From Planctomycetota bacterium (GTDB lineage Bacteria; Planctomycetota; Phycisphaerae; UBA1845; UTPLA1), in NCBI GenBank assembly GCA_003576905.1, contig QEVG01000015.1, positions 1 to 64,000 on the forward strand: 64,000 bases of DNA. Reading direction: 5' to 3'. The translations under genes were made by a program, and so were the position numbers. The notes beneath the pieces were generated by a model. The model was given only the letters and a program-made list of their open reading frames with translations, was not told the DNA's origin and did no database searches. This document shows positions 42,101 to 54,194 of this stretch, one piece after another. How positions within the stretch are numbered: the first letter of the stretch is position 1; the number at the start of each line of letters is the position of its first letter.

Positions 42101-44167
<2,067 letters not shown>

Positions 44168-44401: not shown

Positions 44402-44416
44402 TGGCACAGTTATTGC
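44402..44416 (+). promoter_or_regulatory. Consensus sigma-54 (RpoN) promoter
   Basis: TGGCAC-AGTTA-TTGC: the -24 GG and -12 GC are separated by exactly 10 bases, as RpoN requires. Predicted start near 44428 on the plus strand. It needs an enhancer-binding activator. No other full match was noticed elsewhere in the window. Confidence 0.7.
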
Positions 44417-44427
44417 GACATAAAACT

Positions 44428-44517
44428 TTTCTAAATATAGAGTTACGAATGCTGAGAGCGTGCGTTGGTCCGAGAAATCTGCGTCCTGATGTGTTGAAAA
44501 AATCTTCAACTTTTTTT
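44428..44517 (+). ncRNA. Candidate short transcript between the sigma-54 site and a terminator
   Basis: If the sigma-54 promoter fires, transcription would run only about 90 nt before the terminator at 44493-44517. The segment is AT-rich and has no good reading frame or Shine-Dalgarno. It could be a small RNA, or the terminator could be read through so that the sigma-54 promoter also drives the PEP-CTERM gene. Prediction only. Confidence 0.3.
44493..44517 (+). terminator. Intrinsic terminator between two promoters
   Basis: GTTGAA pairs with TTCAAC (6 bp, 6-nt loop), followed directly by seven T residues. The stem is AU-rich but the T-run is excellent. Confidence 0.5.
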
Positions 44518-44536
44518 AATCCACCCGGCCCAACGC

Positions 44537-44566
44537 TTGACTCGCAATGTCGGTTTCTGGTACAAA
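44537..44566 (+). promoter_or_regulatory. Sigma-70-like promoter of the PEP-CTERM gene
   Basis: TTGACT (44537-44542) and TACAAA (44561-44566) with an 18-base spacer. Predicted start near 44573, leaving a leader of about 290 nt before the ATG at 44866. Confidence 0.55.
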
Positions 44567-44572
44567 TGGTCA

Positions 44573-44740
44573 TTGTGTAGGAGGGCATATCTAAGCAGGC
44601 TCGCGTATGGAGCCGGGTGCCCGAAGCCAGATTGATTGCAGAGCGAGGGATCTCGAGGAAGAAGCAGGCGCTCGATCCGGGGTGGTGCCAGCACGCAAGA
44701 AGTGAAGAGCCTCGATAAGCTCCGCAAAGGCTTATTTTTT
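44573..44740 (+). promoter_or_regulatory. Structured leader with an internal terminator (candidate riboswitch or attenuator)
   Basis: The leader has several hairpins, including GGCTC/GAGCC at 44598-44614 and GAGCG/CGCTC further on. It ends in a terminator: ATAAGC (44715-44720) pairs with GCTTAT (44730-44735), with six T residues to 44740. The gene begins 125 bases later, so this terminator would stop its transcript unless refolded. I do not recognise a known riboswitch class. Confidence 0.4.
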
Positions 44741-44865
44741 GGTGTTCTGAAGCGAAGTCCGCATTTTTAGGATTTCAGTCCTGCTCATCGCCAAGTGGTC
44801 GCCGGATGACCGGGCAGTGAAACAGGTGAATCCGGAATGCAAGAAAAGGAACAGGAGGATTGGTT

Positions 44866-45681
44866 ATGAAGAAGGTATTGGTAGCTGCTCTGCTGGCTGC
44901 GCTCGTGGCGACGCCCGCAATGGCCGGTCTGGCTCCGCCCAGCCCGACGAACCCGACGCGGGTTGGTGCGTTCACTCCGTACAACCTGAACGGTGATGTG
45001 ACTCCGCGCGGGTTCCCGTACGACTCGAACGACCCGAACGACGTCTATGACAACGGTCTGTTCATTGGCGGCTTTTCGAACGGCCCGTCGACGTTCTACG
45101 CCGGCGGTATCATCGACCTGCCCGCTGGCGCGTTCCTCTGCGACGACATCACCCTCAAGCCCGGAACCACCGCGATCGGCAGCGCCGGCACGGGTTCGGG
45201 CGGTATTGACTGGGTTTACAACAACTATTACGCCGGTTCGGGCTCGCACAACGTGACCCTCGCCTTCCTGAACAATCCGGGCGGCAATGACACGAGCCTC
45301 GGCTCCACGATCGCCGCCTTCACCTTCGGCGGTGGCGCTCCGAACGGCTACTACCTGCTTTCGGCCGGTCTCCCGCAGTTTGCGGTCGGCGTCACGGACA
45401 TCTGGCTGTGCATCGCACACTCGGTCCCGACCCGCCACTTCTTCTCGGGCAACCCGGTTGATGGCACCCCCGGCACGGCGAATCCCGCCGCCCTCTATGA
45501 CGGCAGCAGCGACAACCTGCTCGTCGTCTTCGGTGGCGGTGCGACCGGCGCCTTCTCGGGTTCCGGCGCGGCTCTTGCCAACGCCAACTGGGCCCTCCAG
45601 GGCTCGATCATTCCTGAGCCTTCCGTCGCCGGCCTCCTGGCCATCGGCGGTCTGCTCGCTCTCCGCCGCCGCAAGGCCTAA
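44866..45681 (+). CDS. PEP-CTERM sorted extracellular protein
   Basis: 271 residues from the ATG at 44866 with AGGAGG 7 bases upstream. Signal peptide KKVLVAALLAALVATPAMAG. The mature part is Gly/Asn/Ser/Pro-rich, low in Lys and Cys, with beta-sandwich-like strands. The C-terminus has IIPEPSVAGLLAIGGLLAL and then RRRKA: the PEP motif, a hydrophobic helix and an Arg cluster, the exosortase recognition tail. It would be processed and released or anchored at the surface, often as glycoprotein of the matrix. No exosortase gene is in the window. Followed by a very strong terminator, so it is monocistronic. Confidence 0.9.
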   Translation: MKKVLVAALLAALVATPAMAGLAPPSPTNPTRVGAFTPYNLNGDVTPRGFPYDSNDPNDVYDNGLFIGGFSNGPSTFYAGGIIDLPAGAFLCDDITLKPGTTAIGSAGTGSGGIDWVYNNYYAGSGSHNVTLAFLNNPGGNDTSLGSTIAAFTFGGGAPNGYYLLSAGLPQFAVGVTDIWLCIAHSVPTRHFFSGNPVDGTPGTANPAALYDGSSDNLLVVFGGGATGAFSGSGAALANANWALQGSIIPEPSVAGLLAIGGLLALRRRKA

Positions 45682-45725: not shown

Positions 45726-45765
45726 GGCCGCCCTGAAGCTTCGGTTTCAGGGCGGCCTGCTTTTT
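45726..45765 (+). terminator. Strong intrinsic terminator after the PEP-CTERM gene
   Basis: GGCCGCCCTGAA pairs perfectly with TTCAGGGCGGCC (12 bp) around GCTTCGGT, followed by TGCTTTTT. This is the clearest terminator in the window and suggests a highly expressed gene upstream. Confidence 0.9.
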
Positions 45766-46173: not shown

Positions 46174-48660
46174 ATGGATCCGACCGTTGAGTCGGCTGCA
46201 CCAATAACGCCGCCACGAAAAGGGCGGGCCTGGTGGCAGTGGGTAATCGGTATCGGCCTGATCGGTTATGCGGTGTTCTCCCTGGCTTTGCGGGGTGTGG
46301 CCAAATACCGGCCGGAATGGCTCGCCGCCGAGCCCGTCTTCGACCCCATTCCGCTTGAGGTTCCACCGGGGATGAAGGACGGCGATGTCGTGCCCGCGGC
46401 CCCAGGGGCGTACGCGGGGCACAATGTCCTGCTGGTTACACTCGACACGACGCGAGCCGACCGCATCGGCTGCTACGGCAACAAGGCCATCAAGACGCCG
46501 GTGATGGACCGGCTCGCCGCCGAGGGCATTCTGTTTTCGCAGGCCTATGCCCCGAATCCCACGACGCTGCCGTCGCACGCCTCGATCCTTACCGGGCTGT
46601 ATCCGATCCGCCATGGAGCGCGGGCCAACGGCATCTATCGGCTTTCCGACGAAAGCGTGACCCTCGCCGAGCTGTTCGGGCAGAAGGGCTACACGACCGG
46701 CGCTGCCGTGTCGGCGTTTGTGCTGGACGCGCGGTACGGCCTTCGTCAGGGGTTCGCGGATTACGACGACAACGTGCGGGCGTTCGCCGATCCGTCGCGA
46801 TTGCACGATCCGGAGCGACGAGGCGGTGACACCACCGATGTCGCGCTGAAGTGGCTCGAGAAGAACGCCGGCGAGAAGCCGTTCTTCTACTGGATTCACT
46901 ACTTCGATCCGCATCAGCCGTATGAACCCATCGAGCAGTTCGCCATCGACTATGCCCAGATGCCGTACGACGGCGAGATCGCCTATGTCGACAAGCAGAT
47001 CGGCCGGCTGCTGGAGCTCATCGAGAAAAAGGGGCTCCGGGAAAAGACCCTCGTCGTCGTCGTGGGCGACCACGGCCAGGGGCTCGGGCAGCATGAGGAA
47101 GCCACGCACGGCTTCATGGTGTATGACTCGACCCTTCAGGTCCCGTTCATCATGGCGTGCGGAAAGAGTCTCGGTGGCGGGCTGCACGTTCGGCGGCCCG
47201 TCAGTTCCGCGGATATCTTCCCGACGGTTCTCACGCTTTGCGGGATCGAGAAGCCCGAGGGTTTGGACGCCGTGGACCTGACCGTCGCGCCCCAAGGCCC
47301 GCGGAAGCTGTGGTTTGACGCACTCGAAGGATTCCTCGGCTACGGCATGGCCCCGCTGCTATCGGTTCGCGTGGGCGATCTGAAGTACATCTGGGGACCG
47401 GACCCGGAACTCTACGACCTTTCGAAGGACCCCAACGAGTTGCAGGATCTCGCCGACACGAAGCCCGACGCGGTGGCGTCGCTGGAGAAGGAATTGAAGT
47501 CTTACTTCGGCGGCGACCTCGCGAAGGCCGCCATGGTCGATGCCTCCTTCGCCATGACCGAGGAGGAGCAGAATCAGCTCCGGGCGCTGGGATACATCAG
47601 CGATGGAATCAGCTCCGCGCCGCAATCCGGCGAACTGCCCGACCCGAAATCCATGATGCACATCGTGCGCCGCGCGGAGGCCGCCCTGATCGGACTTTCG
47701 ATGGGGGACGTCCAGCGGTCCATTGATGCGTTGAACCAGATCGTGGACGACTACCCGGACTTCTACATCGGGCACAAGTGGCTTGCGGACTGTTACCTGC
47801 GGCTGAAGGATCTGAACAGCATGCGGGATACGCTCAAGAACTGTATTGAGGTACATCCCAATGTTCCGTATCCCTACCTCGTCCTCGCCCGAATTGCCAT
47901 CACCAACAAGGACTATGAAGAAGCGATCTTCTGGTATGAGCAGACCCTGAAGATCGCGGAAGATCACTATACGGCTCTCTCGGAGCTGGGCGGTCTGCTG
48001 CTCGAAATGGACCGCGACCATGCCCGGGCGGCGGACCTGCTTTCGCGGGCCTTCGCGATCCGGCCGGATGATCAGAGCGTCGTCGAGCATATGGCCAACG
48101 CGATGATGCGGGTCGGGCGGGGCGAAGAGCTGATCGACAATCTTCTGGCGCAGATCAAGGCGAAGCCGCAACTGGCGGCGACGCGGAACGCCGCGGCGAG
48201 ACTTCTCCTTCGCTCCAAGAGGTGTCCCGAGGCGATTGCCACGCTGCGCGAGGGATACACGCTCAACCCCGACCAGGACGAACTCGCCAACAATCTCGCG
48301 TATTGCATCATGCAGTGCACGAAGCCGGGCAGCCTTCCGCCCCTGGAGGCCGTCGTCATAGCGGAGAAGCTCTGCCGCAAGACCGGTTACAAGGTTCCCG
48401 AGTACATGCGAACGCTGGCCACGGTGTACGGCGGCTTCGGGCGCTTCGACGAGGCGATCGTCGTTTCGCGACAGGCCGCCCAGGTCGCGCGAGATCAGTC
48501 GAAAACGGCACTGGCGCAGCTGCTCGATAATCTCGCGGTCGAGTATGAGCGGCTGAAGGTGGAGCGCCAGACGCCGACGTCGGCGCCATCCAGCGCCCCG
48601 GCCGCCCGGGGCAACGTCGAAAGTCCCTCGGCGGCGGCAGGGGTCGGACCAAACGGATGA
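46174..48660 (+). CDS. Membrane-anchored alkaline-phosphatase-fold (sulfatase-like) TPR protein, 1
   Basis: 828 residues from the ATG at 46174 (AAGGAG upstream). N-terminal membrane helix after WWQWVIG (about residues 20-42). Catalytic domain about 90-420: LLVTLDTTRADRIGCYG (metal Asp), PTTLPSHASILTG (Thr131 at the nucleophile position), HYFDPHQPYEP, VVGDHGQGLGQHEEATHG (metal Asp/His). From about 500 to the end there are TPR repeats. True sulfatases need Cys/Ser-x-Pro-x-Arg for formylglycine; here it is Thr-Leu-Pro-Ser-His, so a phosphoryl-type chemistry is more likely. Periplasmic. Paralogue at 51777. Confidence 0.85.
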   Translation: MDPTVESAAPITPPRKGRAWWQWVIGIGLIGYAVFSLALRGVAKYRPEWLAAEPVFDPIPLEVPPGMKDGDVVPAAPGAYAGHNVLLVTLDTTRADRIGCYGNKAIKTPVMDRLAAEGILFSQAYAPNPTTLPSHASILTGLYPIRHGARANGIYRLSDESVTLAELFGQKGYTTGAAVSAFVLDARYGLRQGFADYDDNVRAFADPSRLHDPERRGGDTTDVALKWLEKNAGEKPFFYWIHYFDPHQPYEPIEQFAIDYAQMPYDGEIAYVDKQIGRLLELIEKKGLREKTLVVVVGDHGQGLGQHEEATHGFMVYDSTLQVPFIMACGKSLGGGLHVRRPVSSADIFPTVLTLCGIEKPEGLDAVDLTVAPQGPRKLWFDALEGFLGYGMAPLLSVRVGDLKYIWGPDPELYDLSKDPNELQDLADTKPDAVASLEKELKSYFGGDLAKAAMVDASFAMTEEEQNQLRALGYISDGISSAPQSGELPDPKSMMHIVRRAEAALIGLSMGDVQRSIDALNQIVDDYPDFYIGHKWLADCYLRLKDLNSMRDTLKNCIEVHPNVPYPYLVLARIAITNKDYEEAIFWYEQTLKIAEDHYTALSELGGLLLEMDRDHARAADLLSRAFAIRPDDQSVVEHMANAMMRVGRGEELIDNLLAQIKAKPQLAATRNAAARLLLRSKRCPEAIATLREGYTLNPDQDELANNLAYCIMQCTKPGSLPPLEAVVIAEKLCRKTGYKVPEYMRTLATVYGGFGRFDEAIVVSRQAAQVARDQSKTALAQLLDNLAVEYERLKVERQTPTSAPSSAPAARGNVESPSAAAGVGPNG

Positions 48661-48740
48661 TCGTACGCCGGCGGGGGGCGTTCCTGGCTGATTAAGCGGG
48701 CGGAGCGGCAATCCGCGAGGGGGCTGTGAAGGTGCCCTTG

Positions 48741-51605
48741 ATGCCTATGAACATGCGAAAAACCGTGGTGGCTCTGCTGGCCCTGTTCCTCGGTGTGGGG
48801 TTCTGGGCGGCGGGGTGCAGGAAGTCCGAAGGAGAGTCGGAATCGCGCCCGAAAGGGCAGAAAGACGATCTTTCGGACAGCTCGCTCGCCCGAGTTGTCG
48901 GCACGAAGGGGATGAACGTGCTGTATGTCTCGGTGGACACGACGCGAGCCGACCACCTGGGCTGCTACGGGCACCCGCTGTCCAAGACGCCCCATATCGA
49001 CCGATTCGCGTCGGAGGGGGCGCGATTCGCGCAGTGCATTTCGTCCGCGCCGCTGACGCTTGTGTCACACTCGACAATGATGACGGGGTCCTACCAGTTC
49101 GTTCACGGAGCGCGGGACAATACGGCGTTCAAGCTCGCGCCGGAAAATACGACCCTGGCGGAGATTTTTCTTGAAGCGGGATACACGACGCACGCCGAGG
49201 TGGCCACGATCATCCTCGACCCCCAGTTCGGCCTGAATCAGGGATTCGAGGTATACAACGGCGTTCCTCCGGTACAGGAGCCGGGCGTCGCGGGCGGCAA
49301 GCGCGTTATCGACGCGGAAGACAGTGCGCCGGAGACGGATCCGGTCGACGAGCAGCTCGGGCAGCTCAAGACGGATCGGCTGGCGGTGAGCATCACCGAC
49401 GCGGCCATTGAGAAACTGCGCACACTGAAGACCTCGGACAAGCCGTTCTTCATGTTTCTCCACTACTACGATCCGCACTGGCCGCAGGAAGCGCCGGAGG
49501 AGTTCGCCAAGCAGTTCGTCGATCCCTATCTCGCCGAGATCGCCTACTTCGATTTTCACTTCGGCCGGCTGATCGACGAGGTCGACCACCTCGGGCTCGC
49601 GGAGAAGACGCTGATAATCCTTGTCTCCGATCATGGCGAGGGCAAGGGCGAGCACGGAGAGCGAACGCATTCGTGTTTCATTTACGATTCCACGCTCCAC
49701 GTCCCGTGCATCATGCGCTGCCGGGGCGTTGTCCCCGCGGGCCTCGTCGTCAAGCCGCAGGTTCGATTGATCGACATGGCGCCGACCATCCTCGAATTCG
49801 TCGGCATGGAGTCGTTGAAGACGCCGCAGATGCAGGGCGCGAGCCTCCTGCCGCTGCTCGCCAACCCGGGATTGACGCCCGGCCTTCAGGCATACGCTGA
49901 TTCCATCGTGCCACAGATGATGTTCGGGTATTCGCCGCTGCGCGCCCTTCGGACGGACGAACACAAGTACATCCACGCGCCGGCGCCGGAGCTCTATGAT
50001 CTGACGCAGGATCCGCTCGAGGTTTTCAATCGCGCGCCGGGCGACGAGGCCCTGACGCGGGAAATGCGACAGTTGCTTTACGATCTGATCGCGAATTCGC
50101 CCGCGCCGCCGGGGTCGCGCGCGACAGTGTCGGCGTCCGACGAGGAAACGCTGGAGAAGCTTCGGGCCCTGGGCTACATCGGCACCGACGACTCGCTGGA
50201 GGGAATGTCGCAGGGATCGGAACTGGATCAGTTCGAGCCGGTCGGGGACAACCCGCGCGACCACATCGAAGAAATCGAACTCCTGACGGGCGGAATGGGG
50301 GCGGTACGGATCGCGGACTTCGAAAAGGCCGAGATCGGGCTGCGCCGCCTTGTTGAGCTGCGTCCGGATCACAAGCTGGCAGTGGGCACGCTGGCGACGG
50401 CGCTGTGGGGCCAGAAGAAGTACGAGGAGGCGGAAATCTGGTTTCGAAAGGCGATCGAGCTTGATCCGAAGGAGTGCCGGCTGCGGCGCCAGCTCGGCGT
50501 CGTCCTCCGAAATCTTAAGAAATACGGCGAGGCGGAAAAGGCGTTTCGCGACGGCCTGGCGTGTTCCAACAAGGACGCCGCGAACTGGAGCGACCTTGCC
50601 GGGATTCTCTATGAACAGAGGCGATACGAGGAGTGCATCGAGGCGATCAACGAGGCAGACAGGCTTAGCCCGGGTTCGCCGTTGAACCATACGCAGCGCG
50701 CGCTGGCCCGGTGCCGGCTGAAACAGTTCGACAAGGCCGTGGAAGATATTGATCGTGCGATCCGGATCGAGCCGTCGATGCCGCGGGCCCACTCGACCAA
50801 GGCGATCATTCTTTCGGAGATGGGCAAGCCGGAAGAAGCGATCAGCTATCTGAAGGGACACCTGGAGAAGTATCCCGACGATGCGATGTCCCGAAATCAG
50901 CTTGCGAGCTTCTATCTCGCCCGCCGCGATGTGGACGCCGCCGCGCGCGAACTCGCAACGATCGTGGAAAAGGACGAGAAGGCGATCGATGCGAGGCTTC
51001 TGCTCGCCGGAATCCAGTCGTCACGCGGGCAGAAGGCGGAGGCGATCACTCTGTGCAGGAAGGCCGTTGAGCTGGATCCTGACTCCCGCGCGGCCCACGT
51101 CCACCTTGCGGCGGCCCTCGTGCAGAATGACGAATTCGCCGAAGCGATGGACGTATATCGAAACATGCTTGAAAAATGGCCTCTGCCGCAGTTGTATCGC
51201 GACGTCGCCAACTTTGCCGCGATGCGCCTCAAGCAGGAATCGGTCGCCATCGACCTGCTTCGGAAATGCATTCAGGAATTTCCCGAGGACGCGGCCTCGT
51301 ACAACGACCTCGCCTGGAGGCTCGCGACGACGCCCGACGATCAGCTCCGCGACGGCAAGCAGGCTCTCGAACTCGCGAAGCGGGCGAACGGTTTCGCCGA
51401 GAGCGACAACCCATTCTTCCTCGATACCCTTGCCGCCGCCCTGGCCGAGACGGGCGACTTCAAGCAGGCGGCGGACATTGCCCGCCGGGCGAAGGCGCTG
51501 GCCCTGGACATGAAGGCGGAGGCGGTCGCGAATGAGATCGCAGGGAGGATTGAGCTTTACGAGAAGCAGAAGCCCTACCGCGAAAAGCCGCCCGCGACGA
51601 AATGA
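48741..51605 (+). CDS. Alkaline-phosphatase-fold (sulfatase-like) TPR lipoprotein, 2
   Basis: 954 residues from the ATG at 48741 (AAGGTG upstream; GTG 48726 and ATGs at 48747 and 48753 also possible). Lipoprotein signal with the lipobox WAAGC. Catalytic domain with VSVDTTRADHLGCYG, PLTLVSHSTMMTG (Thr106 at the nucleophile site), HYYDPHWPQEAP and VSDHGEGKGEHGERTHS. About 500-950 holds at least ten TPR repeats (WFRKAIELDPKECRLRRQLG, AVEDIDRAIRIEPSMPRAHS and so on). Same fold and order as its neighbours but anchored by lipid instead of a membrane helix. Probably outer-membrane or periplasmic. Confidence 0.85.
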   Translation: MPMNMRKTVVALLALFLGVGFWAAGCRKSEGESESRPKGQKDDLSDSSLARVVGTKGMNVLYVSVDTTRADHLGCYGHPLSKTPHIDRFASEGARFAQCISSAPLTLVSHSTMMTGSYQFVHGARDNTAFKLAPENTTLAEIFLEAGYTTHAEVATIILDPQFGLNQGFEVYNGVPPVQEPGVAGGKRVIDAEDSAPETDPVDEQLGQLKTDRLAVSITDAAIEKLRTLKTSDKPFFMFLHYYDPHWPQEAPEEFAKQFVDPYLAEIAYFDFHFGRLIDEVDHLGLAEKTLIILVSDHGEGKGEHGERTHSCFIYDSTLHVPCIMRCRGVVPAGLVVKPQVRLIDMAPTILEFVGMESLKTPQMQGASLLPLLANPGLTPGLQAYADSIVPQMMFGYSPLRALRTDEHKYIHAPAPELYDLTQDPLEVFNRAPGDEALTREMRQLLYDLIANSPAPPGSRATVSASDEETLEKLRALGYIGTDDSLEGMSQGSELDQFEPVGDNPRDHIEEIELLTGGMGAVRIADFEKAEIGLRRLVELRPDHKLAVGTLATALWGQKKYEEAEIWFRKAIELDPKECRLRRQLGVVLRNLKKYGEAEKAFRDGLACSNKDAANWSDLAGILYEQRRYEECIEAINEADRLSPGSPLNHTQRALARCRLKQFDKAVEDIDRAIRIEPSMPRAHSTKAIILSEMGKPEEAISYLKGHLEKYPDDAMSRNQLASFYLARRDVDAAARELATIVEKDEKAIDARLLLAGIQSSRGQKAEAITLCRKAVELDPDSRAAHVHLAAALVQNDEFAEAMDVYRNMLEKWPLPQLYRDVANFAAMRLKQESVAIDLLRKCIQEFPEDAASYNDLAWRLATTPDDQLRDGKQALELAKRANGFAESDNPFFLDTLAAALAETGDFKQAADIARRAKALALDMKAEAVANEIAGRIELYEKQKPYREKPPATK

Positions 51606-51776
51606 CCGCCGCCTGCCGAGGCGGAGTCATGCCCGATTCCTCACGCGACAAGACGGGCGATCGGCAATTAGAATCTCGACCAATCGGCGATCGGTGGATC
51701 GTGAGCCGCGATTCGCGGGGTATGCCCGACGGTGCGCGTGCACAAGCCTGTACCTTGTTTCAGGGAGCGTGGGACA

Positions 51777-54194
51777 TTGGATAGCGGGGAATCAGCCTTG
51801 CCCGACGCGCCGGACGCATCGGCCCGGCCGGCGACGAAAAAATCCGGTCGCCCCTGGTGGCAGTGGGTCATCGGCTGCGGGCTGATCCTGACCGGCGTGG
51901 CGTCCTATGTTCTGCGCTGGGCGGAGCGAAACCAGCCCGACTGGTATCTGCGGTGGGCGGCGGTGGACACGGTGCCGTTTAACCCCCCCGACGGAACAAA
52001 GACGGTCGATCATGTTCCCGTCACGCCCGGCGCGCTGGCGGACTACAACCTGCTGCTCATCACGCTGGACACCACGCGTGCGGACCGGCTCGGGTACTAC
52101 GGTCATAGGGAGATCGAGACGCCGGTGCTGGACGGTCTGGCCCGCGAGGGGCTGTTCTTTTCTAGAGCCATCACGACGGCACCGACGACGCTTCCTTCGC
52201 ACGCTTCCATATTGACGGGGCAGTGGCCCTATCATCACGGCGCGCGGCTGAACGGCTCGACGCTGCTGGCCGACGACAAGCTGACGCTCGCCGAGATTCT
52301 TCGAGAAAAGGGCTATTCCACTGCGGCGATGGTCTCCGCCTACGTGCTCGATCACACGTTCGGAGTGGCGCAGGGCTTCGAGGTCTATGACGACAAGGTC
52401 ACGCATTTCGACGACGCTCCGGTGCATCGCGAGGCGGAGCGCCGCGGCGATTTGACGACGGACCAGGCCATTGCATGGCTCAAGTCGCCGGCCGCGGCGC
52501 GAAAGTTCTTCCTGTGGGTGCACTACTATGACGCGCACGGCCCGTATGAGCCGCCGGGCGATCTCGCGGAAAAGTACGAAACGATGAAATACGACGGCGA
52601 GATCGTTTTCATCGACCGCCAGATCGCGCGGCTGCTGGAGCAGCTCCGGCTGTCCAACCTGCGCGACAAGACGCTGATCGCCGTCGTGGGGGATCACGGC
52701 GAGGGCCTGGGCCAGCATCGCGAATGGACCCACGGCCTGATGCTTTACGAGCCAACGGTGCATGTCCCGTTCATTCTGAACTGTCCCGGCCGGATCCCGG
52801 GCGGGTTGCACGTGGCCCGAGAGGTATCGGTCGTGGATGTGATGCCCACGCTCCTCGGCATGATCGGCGTGGAAGCGCCGGCGTGCGACGGCGTGACATT
52901 GCTGGCGCCGTGGGCGGCCGAACGGCGCATCTACATGGAGACGAGCGAGGGATTCAATCAGTATGGGTTGTCACCGCTCCTGGCGGTACGCGACGGGCGG
53001 CGTAAGTACATTTACGGGCCGTCGCCGGAGCTCTACGACATCCCGGCCGATCCGGACGAGGGCCGCGATCTGGCCGCCGCGGAGAAAACGGAAGCCGAGC
53101 GAATGAAAACCGATCTGGAGCGGCTCTTCGGCGCGGATCTGGCCAAGGCGATGAACGTGGAGGTGGCACAGAATCTCGGCACGGCGGAGCGTGACAAACT
53201 GGCGGCACTCGGCTACATCTCCTCGGGCCTGACGGCGATTCCCAAAGGCGCGGAACTGCCGGATCCCAAGTCGGTCATGCCGATTGTGAACCGCCTGGAG
53301 CGGATTCTGGCGATTCCCGTCGACGGCACCCGTGCGGAGGCGATCAGGAAGCTCGAAGAGCTTCGGGACGATCACCCGGACTTTTACGCCGTATATAAGC
53401 ACCTGGCGATATTGTACTTCGAGGAAAAGGAGTATTACCTGGCGGCGGCAGCGCTGGAGCAGGCGCTCGACATCTACCCCGACGTGGCGAGCAATCTGCT
53501 GCTTCTTGCACGGGCCCAGGTCCTGATGCGGGAATATCGCCACGCGGTCGAGAACTATCGCCGGGCGATCGAGGTATCCTCGGACAAGTTCACGCCGCTG
53601 GCGGAACTTGGCCGGCTGCTGCTGGAATCGCAGCAGTTCGACCGGGCGGCGACGGAACTGGAGGCCGCGCTGGCGATCAACCCGGAGGACGCGCTGACGC
53701 TGGAGGCGATGGCTTTCGCGTCGCAGAAGCTCGGCCGGAAGGATGCCTGGGTCGCGACACTGCGCGGGCGGATCGCGGAGCGTCCCGAGCTTCCGGAGAC
53801 GCGCTGCGCGCTTGCATTTCTGCTGGCGGCGGATGACCGACACCGGGAAGCGCTGGAGCTTCTGGTGGAGGGAAGCCGCGTGGCGGGCGACCGCCCCGAA
53901 TTCGCCAACGCGACGGCGCGGATCATCCTCGACGCCCCGGACCGCAATCGGTTCGACGCGGCCCGTGTGGTGGCGATGGCGGAGGCGGCCTGCAAGGCGA
54001 CGGACAGCGCCAACGCGCGCTACCTGCATACGCTCATGCTGGCCTATGCCTACGCCGGGCGGATCGCAGAGGCCGTGCGAGCCGGCGAAGCCGCGCTGGC
54101 GATTGCCGACCGCAACCGGATGACGCGCCTGGCGAGTGACATTACAAAGGCACTTGACCGCCTGCGGGCTGCGCCCGTTTCCCCCGCCTCATGA
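51777..54194 (+). CDS. Membrane-anchored alkaline-phosphatase-fold (sulfatase-like) TPR protein, 3
   Basis: 805 residues from TTG at 51777 (GGGAG upstream), chosen because the resulting N-terminus LDSGESALP parallels that of the gene at 46174; GTG at 51732 is an alternative. Membrane helix after PWWQWVIGCGLILTG. Catalytic domain with LLITLDTTRADRLGYYG, PTTLPSHASILTG (Thr138), HYYDAHGPYEPPGD and VVGDHGEGLGQHREWTHG; TPR repeats from about 500. Clearly the closest relative of the gene at 46174, so the triplet arose partly by duplication. The three genes run head to tail and are probably cotranscribed. Confidence 0.85.
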   Translation: MDSGESALPDAPDASARPATKKSGRPWWQWVIGCGLILTGVASYVLRWAERNQPDWYLRWAAVDTVPFNPPDGTKTVDHVPVTPGALADYNLLLITLDTTRADRLGYYGHREIETPVLDGLAREGLFFSRAITTAPTTLPSHASILTGQWPYHHGARLNGSTLLADDKLTLAEILREKGYSTAAMVSAYVLDHTFGVAQGFEVYDDKVTHFDDAPVHREAERRGDLTTDQAIAWLKSPAAARKFFLWVHYYDAHGPYEPPGDLAEKYETMKYDGEIVFIDRQIARLLEQLRLSNLRDKTLIAVVGDHGEGLGQHREWTHGLMLYEPTVHVPFILNCPGRIPGGLHVAREVSVVDVMPTLLGMIGVEAPACDGVTLLAPWAAERRIYMETSEGFNQYGLSPLLAVRDGRRKYIYGPSPELYDIPADPDEGRDLAAAEKTEAERMKTDLERLFGADLAKAMNVEVAQNLGTAERDKLAALGYISSGLTAIPKGAELPDPKSVMPIVNRLERILAIPVDGTRAEAIRKLEELRDDHPDFYAVYKHLAILYFEEKEYYLAAAALEQALDIYPDVASNLLLLARAQVLMREYRHAVENYRRAIEVSSDKFTPLAELGRLLLESQQFDRAATELEAALAINPEDALTLEAMAFASQKLGRKDAWVATLRGRIAERPELPETRCALAFLLAADDRHREALELLVEGSRVAGDRPEFANATARIILDAPDRNRFDAARVVAMAEAACKATDSANARYLHTLMLAYAYAGRIAEAVRAGEAALAIADRNRMTRLASDITKALDRLRAAPVSPAS

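Follow-up and report, generated by a model that had tools for sequence, protein, structure and literature searches.

Upstream of a gene for a PEP-CTERM surface protein in the window (the whole 64,000-nucleotide stretch of planctomycete DNA analysed), a promoter and the start of the sequence behind it are conserved among related genomes. This presumptive message start, which is untranslated, is kept far better than the protein that follows, a difference that points to a so far uncharacterised control element within the message. Our preferred reading, which we judge to be right rather than wrong if only by a little, is that a lineage-specific 5' leader acts post-transcriptionally behind one conserved promoter of the extended -10, sigma-70 type. 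The analysis was computational, and drew on assembled genomes of largely uncultured bacteria and on four leader sequences. An RpoN/PrsR element of PEP-CTERM genes has been reported in Proteobacteria only, and many PEP-CTERM genes have long upstream regions without it (Haft 2006, PMC1569441); the present locus is a concrete candidate for PEP-CTERM control outside the Proteobacteria. A preliminary description of this DNA had seen a layered control region made up of a sigma-54 core, two hairpins, a TTGACT/TACAAA promoter and a PEP-CTERM open reading frame. All these motifs are present at the positions it gave. Comparison with relatives leaves a sigma-70-type promoter with a long, probably regulatory leader, and the other layers are lost. 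The gene and its neighbours are as follows.

42101-44167, minus strand: uvrB, the divergent neighbour of the PEP-CTERM gene in all four genomes.
44866-45681, plus strand: PEP-CTERM sorting-signal protein gene (ATG at 44866; 271 aa, with signal peptide; TIGR02595 above cut-off).
45726-45757, plus strand: strong intrinsic terminator of the PEP-CTERM gene (-28.4 kcal/mol).
46177-48660, plus strand: sulfatase-TPR protein gene, the first of a downstream series, syntenic in all four genomes.

The source genome (G000) is 4.7 Mb in size and has about 50 PEP-CTERM genes. The C-terminal sorting signal and the one exosortase encoded in the genome (PF09721, 179 bits) assign the gene to the PEP-CTERM/exosortase system; a fold prediction of its product was unusable (pLDDT 31). 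The gene is plausibly a single-gene transcription unit, as had been proposed, because the strong terminator follows the open reading frame. Further downstream, three fused sulfatase-TPR protein genes follow in succession (46177-54194) and are syntenic with the PEP-CTERM gene in the four genomes.

Orthologues of the PEP-CTERM gene were found in two genomes of the same genus (G001 and G002) and in one from another genus of the same family (G010). All four share the gene order uvrB (divergent), PEP-CTERM gene, sulfatase-TPR genes. In this four-genome comparison the PEP-CTERM proteins are about 31-38% identical, the sulfatase-TPR proteins 40-51% and UvrB 82-85%; from these sequences the exosortase-sorted surface protein appears to be a fast-evolving one, flanked by a better-kept leader. 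The slot divergent from uvrB is mostly occupied by something else in other genomes. A PEP-CTERM gene is also divergent from uvrB in G014 (L150) and in the more distant G038 (L171), each with a different leader. In G010 a second, related PEP-CTERM gene (L103) lies about 16 kb from the first and lacks the conserved leader.

The promoter is the following.

44537-44566, plus strand: conserved sigma-70-type promoter (-35 TTGACT at 44537-44542; 18-nt spacer ending in TGG; -10 TACAAA at 44561-44566).

It stands where the preliminary description had put a sigma-70 promoter, and is kept in G001, G002 and G010. The layout TTGAC[TA]-N18-TA[CG]AA[AC], with TTCTGGTA, is common to all four syntenic orthologues, the spacer being 18 nt in each, and TTCTGG precedes the -10 hexamer in every case. 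The TGG (44558-44560), absent from the earlier account, forms an extended -10; with a TTGAC-like -35, a TGn before a TAnnnn -10 and conserved spacing, the element is predicted to be an extended -10 promoter of the sigma-70 type. A consensus promoter scan of the window missed it. That this predicted promoter is real is strongly supported by the conservation of its sequence and spacing in four genomes.

Conservation extends from the promoter into the region behind it, which comprises these features.

44573-44865, plus strand: predicted 5' untranslated leader, about 293 nt, its 5' end placed from the position of the -10.
44573-44682, plus strand: conserved leader block, with 72-74% nucleotide identity within the genus (gaps counted) and no Rfam family.
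44641-44669, plus strand: purine-rich stretch, GAGCGAGGGA...CGAGGAAGAAGCAGGC, conserved in sequence but with no conserved fold predicted.
44847-44859, plus strand: conserved ribosome-binding region, AGGAACAGGAGGA.

Among the members of the genus, identity over the leader's first ~120 nt is 0.72-0.74, against a mean of 0.52 and a maximum of 0.65 in shuffles. The mature coding part reaches 0.55-0.57, and the 200 bp that precede the promoter, the sigma-54-like site discussed below included, stand at 0.49-0.51, which is shuffle level. The conservation profile stands at 0.62 at the promoter compared with ~0.15-0.41 upstream, remains high until about 44682 and then drops, to reappear at a small hairpin (44797-44811) and at the ribosome-binding site. 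G010 keeps only islands, namely a 5' AGGAGGG.CA, the outer stem of a hairpin described below, GCGAGGGA, GATCCGG, CCGGATG and the ribosome-binding site, and its overall leader identity (0.55-0.58) lies inside the shuffle range.

The leader is confined to this lineage in the searches that we made. Of the 397 genomes available for the class, these four and no others contain the promoter-plus-leader pattern TTCTGGTANAAN{10,18}AGGAGGGN{0,1}CA, and the control gave no hits. The strong matches to a covariance model of the leader are the genus leaders only; three order-level matches scored 21-23 bits and look like chance. A strict leader pattern gave ten matches in about 85,000 genomes, nine in unrelated contexts and the tenth in G002. 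No copy of the leader was found before the other PEP-CTERM genes of G000, where it is single-copy, and none of the Rfam families matched it above the gathering score, even E<=5 giving chance matches only.

Since the conservation starts at the -35 and lies mostly in primary sequence and not in pairing, it might reflect control at the DNA level, through a transcription factor or effects of the initially transcribed region, instead of an RNA element. We regard this as unlikely: protein-DNA sites do not usually extend over about 110 bp past the start, with further islands at the ribosome-binding site, and the hairpin stems stay in register. We infer that the leader is transcribed and that selection acts on the RNA. 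The elements that might then matter for its structure are listed here.

44583-44622, plus strand: 5' hairpin, with outer stem GGGCAU/GUGCCC (44583-44588 with 44617-44622) and inner stem GGCUC/GAGCC (44598-44602 with 44610-44614).
44675-44680, plus strand: AUCCGG, invariant in four genomes and complementary to an invariant CCGGAU at 44802-44807.
44797-44811, plus strand: small hairpin GGUC-GCCGGAU-GACC, with the loop CCGGAU invariant and one compensatory change in the stem in G001.

The 5' hairpin (6 bp outer, 5 bp inner) forms in all three members of the genus, with one compensatory change; the inner stem is missing in G010, and 168 of 500 shuffles reach the same level, which makes this a weak signal. 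A long-range pairing of AUCCGG (44675-44680) with CCGGAU (44802-44807) is possible. The consensus fold contains it, but invariance cannot test a pairing and CCGG is self-complementary. The small hairpin on its own is not the minimum-energy fold. Several points count against the favoured reading of a post-transcriptionally acting leader: the leader block folds no better than its shuffles (z of +1.1, +0.5, 0.05 and -1.75, the last a mild excess in G010), covariation is minimal (one compensatory pair among only 3-4 sequences), G010 retains islands only, and DNA might be the level at which the conservation acts.

These structural data bear also on the proposal that the leader is a ligand-sensing riboswitch or belongs to some other class of structured RNA not yet described. 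Its position between promoter and ribosome-binding site, the 5' hairpin, the invariant AUCCGG/CCGGAU, the conserved purine-rich core and the lack of an Rfam match would all be in keeping with such an RNA; its restriction to one gene in four genomes, the absence of excess folding stability and the very slight covariation speak against it, and we consider it improbable. Orphan cis-regulatory RNA motifs from comparative genomics (e.g. PMC2864571) are likewise conserved non-coding leaders without an Rfam match, but here there is one gene in four genomes and the structural evidence is far weaker. A bolder version of the favoured reading sees in the leader a cis-regulatory RNA class that is new and belongs to one planctomycete family; contact between its 5' domain and the ribosome-binding region, by way of AUCCGG/CCGGAU, would control a fast-evolving, exosortase-sorted surface protein. 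We hold this version to be possible but doubtful.

In the favoured reading itself, the extended -10 promoter at 44537-44566 would transcribe the PEP-CTERM gene, and the ~293-nt leader would be a lineage-specific cis-acting RNA element that works after transcription start. Its 5' end would consist of the hairpin at 44583-44622 and the purine-rich stretch at 44641-44669, with the ribosome-binding region perhaps joined to this 5' block by the AUCCGG/CCGGAU pairing. That a leader is more conserved than its protein implies control of the message, and the leader would most likely set the stability or the translation of the surface-protein mRNA, either through RNA structure or through a putative protein or small RNA acting on the purine-rich stretch. 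Primary sequence in that stretch gives the strongest signal, which fits binding of a protein or small RNA. A possible parallel is the mRNA-stabilising 5'-terminal stem-loop (Emory 1992), which PMC8056022 cites for S-layer mRNAs. The stabilising 5' hairpins of abundant surface-protein genes resemble the present case in having a hairpin near the (here predicted) start and a long leader on a surface-protein mRNA; the present case differs in that ~10 unpaired nt precede the hairpin and a long purine-rich stretch is conserved as well.

Other candidate functions for the leader were rejected. It has many GGA motifs and a hairpin with GGA in the loop, as might suit CsrA, but PF02599 is absent from the genome, which is 97% complete. 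A leader peptide is contradicted by reading frames interrupted by stops and by indels that are not multiples of three. The purine-rich block is not a recognisable copy of the ribosome-binding region, their alignment being no better than that of shuffles (243 of 1000).

Attenuation was another layer of the earlier proposal, which placed terminators at 44493-44517 and 44715-44740, the second inside the leader. The two hairpins are these.

44493-44517, plus strand: weak A/T-rich hairpin followed by T7 (GTTGAA-AAAATC-TTCAAC-T7; 6 bp, -3.6 kcal/mol), not conserved.
44714-44740, plus strand: hairpin with U tract (-5.9 kcal/mol), not conserved.

Both fell below the criteria of a terminator scan (0 found, 0.7 expected in shuffles). 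The first belongs to the stretch before the promoter, which is unconserved, and none of G001, G002 and G010 retains the second hairpin with its U tract. A stable, conserved terminator hairpin with a U tract, the mark of an attenuator, was not found in the leader, and the attenuated leader is thus unsupported. That the 44714-44740 hairpin and its U tract exist in G000 is the one point in favour of attenuation at this site, which we consider very improbable given that the relatives lack it and that it scores too low as a terminator.

The remaining layer is a sigma-54-like site.

44402-44416, plus strand: sigma-54-like -24/-12 core, TGGCACAGTTATTGC (TGGCAC-N5-TTGC), not conserved in the orthologous intergenic regions.

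According to the alternative built on it, a sigma-54 promoter at 44402 is a second, conditional input, with a small RNA that ends at the 44493-44517 terminator. The core is exact, has the GG of -24 and the GC of -12 at the correct spacing, and is intergenic; RpoN (PF04552, 180.1 bits) and several NtrC-type regulators are encoded in the genome, and two other, mutually similar PEP-CTERM genes of G000 have strong -24/-12 sites. Against this, the core was not found in the 1200 bp upstream of any of the three syntenic orthologues, a lack of conservation that the preliminary description itself had named as speaking against its proposal, and the whole region upstream of the sigma-70-type promoter is unconserved; the hairpin that would end the small RNA is weak, and the other strong sites in G000 lie ~265-274 nt from the ATG in different surroundings. 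Exact cores number 25 in the whole genome compared with 11 for a reversed control pattern, only about twice the control, so that meeting an exact core within 64 kb is nothing unusual; perhaps about half of such genomic cores are real. Allowing at most one mismatch gives 6 cores in the window, against an expected 4.25. A good-looking sigma-54 core is by itself weak evidence. By eye, the -12 half (TTGCGA) and a TATAGA 17 nt downstream (44412-44440) can also be read as a weak sigma-70 site.

Convergence of RpoN and PrsK/PrsR on this gene, the system that the preliminary description had invoked, fares no better. In Proteobacteria the PEP-CTERM element has a 17-nt box ending in TTTACA that lies 32-92 nt upstream of the -24/-12 (Haft 2006, PMC1569441); the -24/-12 motif itself has its end 23-221 nt ahead of the start codon, and PrsK/PrsR accompany the element (PMC1569441). 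At 44402 no such box was found at that distance, as judged by the TTTACA end only, and the site is 449 nt from the ATG, outside the published range. The preliminary description had suggested looking in this genome for prsK/prsR and exosortase genes; the exosortase is there, as noted above, but the best genome matches to PrsR (TIGR02915, 414.1 bits, cut-off 502.6) and PrsK (TIGR02916, 101.8 bits, cut-off 300) are not over the cut-offs. The locus does share with RpoN/PrsR-controlled PEP-CTERM promoters (PMC1569441; Aquincola pepA, PMC9850573) a transcription unit of its own after a long non-coding region, a -24/-12-like core, and an RpoN and an exosortase encoded in the genome. It differs from them in the missing box end, the lack of PrsK/PrsR above cut-off, the distance, a core not found in the orthologues, a planctomycete host and a conserved promoter that is sigma-70-like. 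Taken together, we think the sigma-54 input with its small RNA quite improbable.

When some 54 PEP-CTERM upstream regions were scanned with an approximate sigma-54 matrix, only the 44402 site and those of L092 and L097 scored above 13. The latter two (L097 on contig C41 of G000 at ~43.2 kb, L092 on contig C58 at ~42.5 kb) are the mutually similar PEP-CTERM genes mentioned above. Their sites read TGGCATGA[CT]AATTGC[CT]TG, lie 274 nt (L097) and 265 nt (L092) ahead of the start, and appear to argue for RpoN control of PEP-CTERM genes more convincingly than the 44402 site does in G000. An inverted repeat, TGTCA...TGACG, lies just upstream of both.
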